Shown here: one piece after another, positions 24,111-24,808 of the stretch
Numbering within the stretch: position 1 is the first letter of the stretch
Layout: every line of letters starts with the position of its first letter
Notes under the pieces: model-generated
The model's database searches: none
The model's input: only the letters and a program-made list of their open reading frames with translations
Told to the model about the DNA's origin: nothing
Source of the DNA: Clostridia bacterium
GTDB taxonomy: Bacteria > Bacillota > Clostridia > Oscillospirales > Acutalibacteraceae
NCBI GenBank assembly: GCA_017436915.1
Contig: JAFSCE010000020.1
Coordinates: forward strand, 1-64,000
Reading direction: 5' to 3'
DNA length: 64,000 nucleotides
Program-made: the position numbers and the translations under genes

Positions 24111-24184
24111 GCGGGAGTAATTCAATGGTAGAATGTCAGCTTCCCAAGCTGAATACGCGGGTTCGATTCCCGTCTTCCGCTCCA
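24111..24184 (+). tRNA. tRNA-Gly (CCC)
   Basis: Acceptor GCGGGAG pairs with CTTCCGC, anticodon stem TCAGC/GCTGA carries loop TTCCCAA (anticodon CCC), the T-arm is GGGTTCGATTCCC, and CCA is encoded. A weak promoter (TTGATT 24072, TACCAT 24095, 17 bp) lies upstream. It is followed at once by a terminator and then by the hairpin array. Confidence 0.96.
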
Positions 24185-24218
24185 AAAAAGAACGAAGCAT
24201 TTGCTTCGTTCTTTTTTT
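24184..24218 (+). terminator. Terminator of tRNA-Gly
   Basis: AAAAAAGAACGAAGCA pairs with TGCTTCGTTCTTTTTT around a TT turn, ending in seven Ts. Confidence 0.92.
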
Positions 24219-24220
24219 AT

Positions 24221-24413
24221 CCAAGCCGCAGGATTGGCATATCATCACCGCGCGAAGTGCGGTGTATATCATCAAAAAGCAGACTGCGATCTGCTTTTTG
24301 TATCTCATCACGCCTTAGCGTGTATTTTTCCTGCAGCTTGATGATATACAACACTTCGTGTTGGTGATATGCAATTCCTGCGGAATTGATGATATGCAAC
24401 GGCTGCGCCGTTG
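24221..24413. repeat. Array of seven short hairpins with 8-bp conserved spacers and inverted symmetry
   Basis: Seven perfect or near-perfect hairpins lie at 24221-24237, 24246-24264, 24273-24300, 24309-24322, 24349-24363, 24372-24388 and 24397-24413. Stem sequences differ from one another. Six of the stems start CA and end TG, and most loops read CTGCG or CTTCG or their complement. Spacers in the left half are CATATCAT, TATATCAT and TATCTCAT. Spacers in the right half are the reverse complement type, ATGATATA, GTGATATG and ATGATATG. The change of orientation happens around the palindrome CTGCAG at 24331-24336. The array sits between tRNA-Gly and a four-helix-bundle gene. Confidence 0.85.
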
Positions 24414-24439
24414 ATTTATTGGTCACTGTCTGCTATAAT
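24411..24439 (+). promoter_or_regulatory. Promoter of the four-helix-bundle gene
   Basis: TTGATT (24411-24416) and TATAAT (24434-24439) are spaced 17 bp. The -35 box begins in the last three bases of the seventh hairpin, so the array is physically joined to this promoter. Confidence 0.8.
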
Positions 24440-24460
24440 ACTTGCGAAAGGAGTGTTGAT

Positions 24461-24808
24461 ATGTCCAAAAATTATTTGTTAACCTATTCCGAACAACTTG
24501 CGACAAATATTGAATTGCTTTGTCAAAACATAAAAGCTCCGTCAAACACTCTTTTTCAGATTCGGAAAAGTTCAAGTAGTGTTTATGCAAACATTCGTGA
24601 AGCTAATTACGGACAGAGCATGGCAGATATGCTTTCCAAATTTGAGATTGCGTTAAAAGAGTGTACCGAAACAGAGGGTTGGCTACAGCTGCTTTTCAAC
24701 ACAAACGCCATTGACGACATTACATATAAAAAACACAGAAATCTTTGTGGTCGTATTAGGAGAATGCTGATTGCCAGCTGCAAAACGCTCAAGGACAACG
24801 CAAAATAA
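24461..24808 (+). CDS. Four-helix-bundle protein (S23/IVP, Avd-like)
   Basis: This 115-aa protein matches the four-helix-bundle family originally found in 23S rRNA intervening sequences and related to the diversity-generating-retroelement accessory protein Avd. Typical features are NTLFQIRKSSSSVYANIREANYG (helix-turn with SxxxxANIxE, about 28-50), then FEIALKECTETEGWL and a C-terminal RRMLIASCKTL helix. The ATG at 24461 follows AAAGGAG at 8 bp; the reading frame is open upstream through the promoter. Relatives form ring-like oligomers with a basic surface that suggests nucleic-acid binding. It is probably the partner of the adjacent hairpin array, which is an inference from position. Confidence 0.88.
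   Translation: MSKNYLLTYSEQLATNIELLCQNIKAPSNTLFQIRKSSSSVYANIREANYGQSMADMLSKFEIALKECTETEGWLQLLFNTNAIDDITYKKHRNLCGRIRRMLIASCKTLKDNAK

Follow-up and report, generated by a model that had tools for sequence, protein, structure and literature searches.

Inverted hairpin arrays upstream of S23/TIGR02436-type four-helix-bundle genes in Clostridia: a probable family of mobile elements

We describe here an array of seven hairpins (positions 24221-24413) and the four-helix-bundle (fhb) gene located directly behind it, together a candidate mobile unit, found in a 64,000-nucleotide stretch of contig JAFSCE010000020.1 from a Clostridia bacterium of the order Oscillospirales (the whole stretch is called the window below). 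Genomes, contigs and loci used for comparison carry G, C and L numbers, respectively.

The array and the gene at the locus

An earlier note, made from the letters of the window alone, had described seven hairpins with inverted spacers. The existence of the array was confirmed; the hairpin coordinates and spacer types were re-found (Table 1), with spacers ATATCATCA in the left half (TATATCAT/TATCTCAT-type) and TGATGATAT in the right half (ATGATAT), while the CA start and TG end ascribed to six stems belong to the last six hairpins. Folded as single-stranded DNA the array reaches -52.3 kcal/mol, as against -25.4 +/- 3.1 for shuffled sequences (z -8.7, 0/200). In the predicted DNA fold the left spacers pair with the right ones and side hairpins stick out from this shared backbone. 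Six of the ten matches of the spacer pattern in the window fall within the array; shuffled versions of the entire window average 1.85 matches.

The block lies immediately downstream of tRNA-Gly(CCC) and its terminator, and the -35 box (TTGATT, 24411-24416), separated by 17 nt from the -10 box (TATAAT, 24434-24439), starts inside the last hairpin, both as previously proposed. The CTGCAG palindrome, near which spacer orientation had been noted to flip, turned out to be incidental, being part of a slightly decayed complement (CCTGCAGCTTG) of the 5' arm of the first hairpin (P0). Complementarity of at least 8 exact bases between this arm and the central segment was noticed in 132 of 165 arrays (left ends), in 13 different sequences. 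Scanning of the window against Rfam 15 gave no RNA family over the array, the only matches being tRNA and RNase P.

The protein encoded behind the array matches TIGR02436 (1.3e-19, 70.4 bits, cut-off 24) and PF05635 (2.8e-17, 63.3 bits, cut-off 33.8). Its AlphaFold2 (AF2) model (predicted local distance difference test, pLDDT, 94.7) adopts a four-helix fold similar to 2rld (template modelling score, TM, 0.86), and by sequence and fold (2rld, 2gsc) it is a member of the S23/IVP family.

Stems of the arrays vary freely, and the shape and a C(GNA)G-type loop alone are kept. Among 46 distinct 15-nt hairpins of one slot type, 97% of cells were paired, as against 28-51% when the alignment was slid, the covariation score was 0.527 versus 0.107 for shuffles, and there was one G-U pair in 276 cells; these values bear out the previous remark that stems vary yet stay complementary. 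The loop is closed by a C-G pair in 387 of 408 triloops (20 of 69 in controls). It reads GNA on the strand whose spacer reads ATATCA and TNC where the spacer reads TGATAT, so that GNA loops on each strand are confined to one half. This coupling of loop and spacer polarity holds in family 1 and in other array families, despite halves being swapped between them. Because G-U pairs are nearly absent and the loops obey this strand rule, recognition as single-stranded or extruded DNA is favoured; for a comparison of G-U with A-C mismatches, which might also tell the strand, too few mismatches are present.

Table 1. Features of the hairpin array and its surroundings in the window
Feature	Position	Strand	Source
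tRNA-Gly(CCC), host gene ahead of the element	24111..24184	+	ARAGORN, Rfam RF00005
Intrinsic terminator AAAAAAGAACGAAGCATTTGCTTCGTTCTTTTTTT; identical stem also precedes other arrays	24184..24218	+	
First hairpin P0 (CCAAGCCGCAGGATTGG); 5' arm complementary to the central segment in other copies	24221..24237	+	
Left hairpin 1, preceded by spacer CATATCATCA	24246..24264	+	
Left hairpin 2	24273..24300	+	
Left hairpin 3	24309..24322	+	
Central segment CCTGCAGCTTG, decayed complement of the P0 arm; spacer orientation flips here	24330..24340	+	
Right hairpin 1, preceded by spacer TGATGATATA	24349..24363	+	
Right hairpin 2	24372..24388	+	
Right hairpin 3, overlapping the -35 box	24397..24413	+	
Promoter TTGATT-17-TATAAT; same position in other gene-bearing copies	24411..24439	+	
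Ribosome-binding site AAAGGAG	24447..24453	+	
fhb gene, 115-aa four-helix-bundle protein	24461..24808	+	TIGR02436, PF05635; AF2 pLDDT 94.7

Arrays and fhb genes in the order and beyond

We searched 394 genomes of the order for proteins homologous to that of the window. All close homologues (79-90% identity, L217-L232) have a TGATGATAT array immediately upstream, as do all family-1 fhb genes (L216-L232), and a group of 61-67% identity (L233-L243) shares this architecture with GATNNCATAC spacers, L237 possessing the right half only; spacers of other fhb subfamilies include AGTGATAT. We also fetched eighty more distant fhb genes, for which an array was defined as one 7-mer occurring at least 5 times, both orientations taken together. 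An inverted array was present upstream in 57 of 78 of them and in 0 of 337 control windows, in agreement with the co-occurrence of arrays and TIGR02436-type genes that the earlier note had suggested checking; 57/78 is a lower bound, since the exact k-mer score overlooks arrays with variable spacers (L246, L254 and L268 look array-like by eye). Spacer types of these distant genes include GTGATAT, GCGATAT, TCGATAT, ATGAAAT, GTGAAAT, TGAATTG, AATGATG and AGCTAAA. A per-genome Fisher test of array against family-1 fhb was not used, as the two are not independent (each such fhb has its own array). Three ATGAAAT-type fhb units (L259, L266, L275) stand at apparently the same place, behind the gene for ATP synthase subunit K.

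Spacer type follows the protein: identity of fhb proteins correlates with shared spacers (Mantel r 0.65, 0/2000), and two natural chimeras, composed of a family-1 N-terminal half and a foreign C-terminal half, are accompanied by family-1 spacers and arrays. The chimeric proteins (L244 and L325) come from genomes of two bacterial families and have the same breakpoint near REAQYAHGK.

Within the order arrays are sporadic and multi-copy. They were detected in 44 of 394 genomes and 30 of 169 genera, whereas a reversed control pattern was found in 0 of the 394; most of these genomes are metagenome assemblies, which break at repeats. At least 120 stretches were obtained on scanning species genomes, and those listed are all labelled Clostridia, Oscillospiraceae or similar gut lineages. 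The 1.5-Mb genome of the window contains about nine further arrays. Nearly all arrays of this genome follow a tRNA or another terminator ending TTTTTATCC, and some are in tandem with one small gene per unit. Two of its contig ends with overlapping array sequence (G000 C9:60765-end and C17:1-155) are probably one tandem cassette locus split by assembly. Nucleotide searches of phage and plasmid collections returned no array match; among viral contig matches two were chance matches in coding sequence and two were records of one prophage beside an array.

For 122 arrays enough upstream sequence was available, and a tRNA gene on the same strand was located within 420 bp in 71 and within 175 bp in 65 of them. 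About 30 different anticodons are represented, and about half of the arrays start right after the tRNA terminator. In a genome of the same genus (L215:1830-2200) the 3' end of tRNA-Gly(CCC) and the terminator are duplicated around a short insert, which is a different event at the same tRNA. The gene-less arrays L053, L049, L073, L113 and L117 end on the right in a T-arm mimic, roughly GGGTTCGAATTCATACGCAAAACTGCCNAAAATATCTTTTTTGTAGC, whatever tRNA precedes.

Judged by sequence divergence, the unit is horizontally transferred, between bacterial families, because fhb identity (83-90%) exceeds that of ClpC (48-65%) between the same genomes of the order. ClpC served as the yardstick of divergence, subunit A of the V-ATPase being unsuited owing to paralogues.

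The genes behind the arrays are small and of various kinds, fhb being the most frequent. A -10 box occurs at the expected place in 64 of 146 arrays, the first start codon then lying mostly about 60 bp from the array end, about half of the arrays lack a promoter downstream, and some lead directly into a ribosome-binding site with no promoter visible; many arrays have no gene behind at all. Among 102 first open reading frames (ORFs) behind family-1 arrays 15 were fhb, the others coding for lipoproteins, small membrane proteins, HAD-like proteins and more. The earlier note had named arrays occurring widely with no fhb nearby as a finding that would refute it, and this is indeed the situation of most family-1 arrays. 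Clustering of ORFs from about 150 loci left fhb as the sole widely recurrent real protein (29 loci); the second-largest cluster is an artefact, consisting of translated array sequence, and among recombinases, transposases and reverse transcriptases none stands out as recurrent. Gene-bearing units (L018:1700-1790, L065, L122, L175) have a common 3' end, CTCGGTTTTC...GTGTCATTAAGTTCAAACTACCC, directly before the terminator of the next unit.

We also inspected 29 fhb loci from other Bacillota, Cyanobacteria, Bacteroidota, Spirochaetota and Chloroflexota (one of the 29 comes from the same order). Arrays of period 7 lie upstream of fhb in 21 and downstream in 20 of them; an upstream array of another period occurs in 1. 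In 17 of 29 loci one 7-mer is present, inverted, at least 2 times on each side of fhb, compared with 1.4% of control placements. In the Oscillospirales-type form hairpins separate the repeats and the entire inverted array stands upstream of the gene, with at least 2 motif copies downstream in only 5 of 55 cases. The inverted heptamer arrays around fhb look like an ancestral form.

Filled and empty sites with defined ends, as expected of transposable elements, were found for these heptamer relatives in Nostoc. On plasmid A of strain C052 (L364) the unit (AATTCGT)n-fhb-(ACGAATT)n stands in place of 188 bp kept by five related plasmids (L371-L375). In strain N6 (L360) it interrupts a gene for a DNA cytosine methyltransferase that is intact in L377, and about 330 bp are missing. 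In strain TCL26-01 (L363) the unit separates cas2 from cas1; in L376 these genes are 2 bp apart and about 62 bp have no counterpart. Ends of the Nostoc inserts coincide with the heptamer arrays, and the loss of target DNA is unlike simple insertion with short target duplication.

A mobile element and the alternatives

With a probability of roughly 70% we read the block in the window as one copy of a family of mobile elements, with no known recombinase, of which fhb is the own or cognate protein. Of the earlier hypothesis, a small mobile or regulatory unit whose protein recognises the hairpins, the mobile unit with its own fhb protein is well supported by sporadic multiple copies, transfer, arrays with subfamily-specific spacers upstream of the gene and filled and empty sites of relatives. 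Direct recognition of the hairpins is presumed only; the part of the array that goes with the protein is the spacer sequence, and the stems vary freely. The factor recognising the array is probably fhb.

In the mechanism we propose, the inverted halves of the hairpin array would constitute the recognition region of the element, and an fhb oligomer (a pentamer in solved relatives) would bind the repeated unit, probably on single-stranded or extruded DNA, in the form of the spacer ATATCA and the C(GNA)G mini-hairpin of one strand. The protein would draw the inverted halves towards each other, and enzymes of host replication or recombination might then copy or insert the unit beside hairpin-forming DNA, such as terminators. 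Arrays lacking fhb, whether they are empty or their identical promoter is followed by another small gene, may be moved in trans and would represent non-autonomous copies.

Several observations weigh against such an element. The fhb protein has no known catalytic site, and in 26 of the 44 array-bearing genomes no family-1 fhb was found, though several of these genomes are incomplete. The clean filled and empty pairs come from heptamer relatives and not from the hairpin form, for which the genus of the window provides one array-free tRNA-Gly site (genome G007), too diverged for reading exact ends. Furthermore, gene and array are adjacent, and co-inheritance without binding can give a correlation of spacer with subfamily; the evidence from chimeras is equally open to explanation by linkage.

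Since many arrays are followed by no gene at all, we consider a purely regulatory reading less likely. In that case the hairpins would be operator DNA, fhb an autoregulator and the arrays in front of other genes its regulon, which suits the contact of the last hairpin with the -35 box and the regular position of the -10 box and start codon where these are present. We regard it as unlikely, given the half of arrays with no promoter, the arrays on both sides of fhb in other phyla, the interruption of genes by the unit, its sporadic distribution and its horizontal movement. Integron-like cassettes, in which arrays serve as folded recombination sites of an unlinked tyrosine recombinase, tRNA 3' ends as platform and fhb merely as the commonest cargo, would suit the varied single genes that follow one kind of array and promoter, the tandem units and the tRNA sites. 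In L016 and L141 the tRNA 3' end is perfectly repeated, which agrees with this, but such a repeat was detected in just about 3 of 65 tRNA sites, so that duplication of the tRNA 3' end fails at most loci as a general attachment site. The two PF00589 genes of the window genome are both unlinked to arrays, no recombinase recurs near arrays, and having an own array type per fhb subfamily is unlike cargo; cassettes of this kind appear rather improbable.

The array might alternatively be a transcribed structure bound by fhb as RNA, whether cut by RNase III like an intervening sequence (IVS) or part of a tRNA-linked transcript. Its fold as RNA is strong (z -9.5), rRNA intervening sequences code for relatives of the protein (PMC4990558), and there are the arrays that reach a ribosome-binding site with no visible promoter. 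Against it, the window has a terminator before the array and a promoter after it, and the single G-U pair and the restriction of GNA loops to one half on each strand do not suit RNA; this explanation too appears rather improbable. That arrays are passive repeats born of replication slippage and gene conversion, with fhb as passenger, recalls the heptamer repeats common in bacterial genomes, for which slippage has been proposed (PMC4679880). This origin is made highly improbable by the compensatory changes in stems, the inversion of the halves, the spacers peculiar to each subfamily and the sharp insertion ends at arrays, and the mobile element with its cognate fhb is the reading we prefer.

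Comparison with known systems

Repetitive extragenic palindromic (REP) elements, including REPINs and bacterial interspersed mosaic elements (BIMEs), are dispersed inverted hairpin units with many non-autonomous copies and one cognate gene per repeat type, and the RAYT proteins are Y1 (HUH) nucleases. The arrays studied here are likewise scattered, inverted and hairpin-forming, and each repeat type goes with one type of cognate protein; fhb, in contrast, has no nuclease fold, and no Y1 HUH transposase recurs near the roughly 150 arrays. Integron cassettes consist of a single gene and an adjoining folded site (attC), structured but variable in sequence, and form tandem units. The present units share these traits but differ in that no linked integrase was found, each unit has its own promoter and the array is upstream of the gene. 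Avd of diversity-generating retroelements (4dwl, 8ub7) is a distant fold relative that handles nucleic acid (TM 0.75-0.80), differing in sequence (about 14% identity) and in that no reverse transcriptase cluster is present near the arrays.

The short tandemly repeated repetitive (STRR) heptamers of cyanobacteria are intergenic tandem 7-mers, family-specific in sequence and taxonomically scattered. The TAACTGA repeats of Beggiatoaceae are likewise intergenic, family-specific tandem 7-mers of scattered taxonomy, and the text searched (PMC4679880) yielded no mention of linkage to fhb, of inverted halves or of hairpins separating the repeats. Intervening sequences in 23S rRNA of Coxiella, Leptospira and Brucella encode S23p/IVP, and mobility due to the ORF product was proposed, the matter being described as unresolved (PMC4990558). 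These elements resemble ours in the PF05635 protein and in being short, selfish-looking units with inverted ends in or beside structural RNA genes. They differ in lying inside 23S rRNA helices and being cut out as RNA by RNase III, whereas the units described here are located after terminators or within genes, and their arrays consist of hairpins or heptamers; the window block is behind tRNA-Gly, and the window contains no rRNA.

A broader view, to which we give slightly less than even odds, is that S23/TIGR02436 proteins may be mobility proteins of pan-bacterial transposable elements lacking recombinase and nuclease, which would act on cognate inverted hairpin or heptamer arrays (single-stranded or extruded) and be inserted by host enzymes beside hairpin DNA with loss of target, rRNA intervening sequences being a specialised branch. 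The findings assign to a large orphan protein family, annotated with no function, its cognate partner among nucleic acids and a probable role, join three separate puzzles (rRNA intervening sequences, heptamer repeats and hairpin arrays behind tRNAs), and render directly testable the question posed in 1993 for intervening sequences, whether their ORF serves mobility (cited in PMC4990558). Traffic of gene cassettes at tRNA terminators of gut Clostridia is also indicated. In the open-access text searched we found nothing describing fhb with such arrays, or TIGR02436 or 'four helix bundle protein' with terminal inverted repeats.

Units with fhb are often situated within defence-type operons of plasmids, as in L359, L363 (cas2-fhb-cas1) and L358 (hsdS-fhb-hsdR), and in helicase-fhb-methylase and similar contexts in L367, L368 and L370; this may reflect either sampling or preference. 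On the Dolichospermum plasmid pAfl69 (L378:27307-33654) nine period-7 arrays were counted in 50 kb, all of them within 6.3 kb around fhb.
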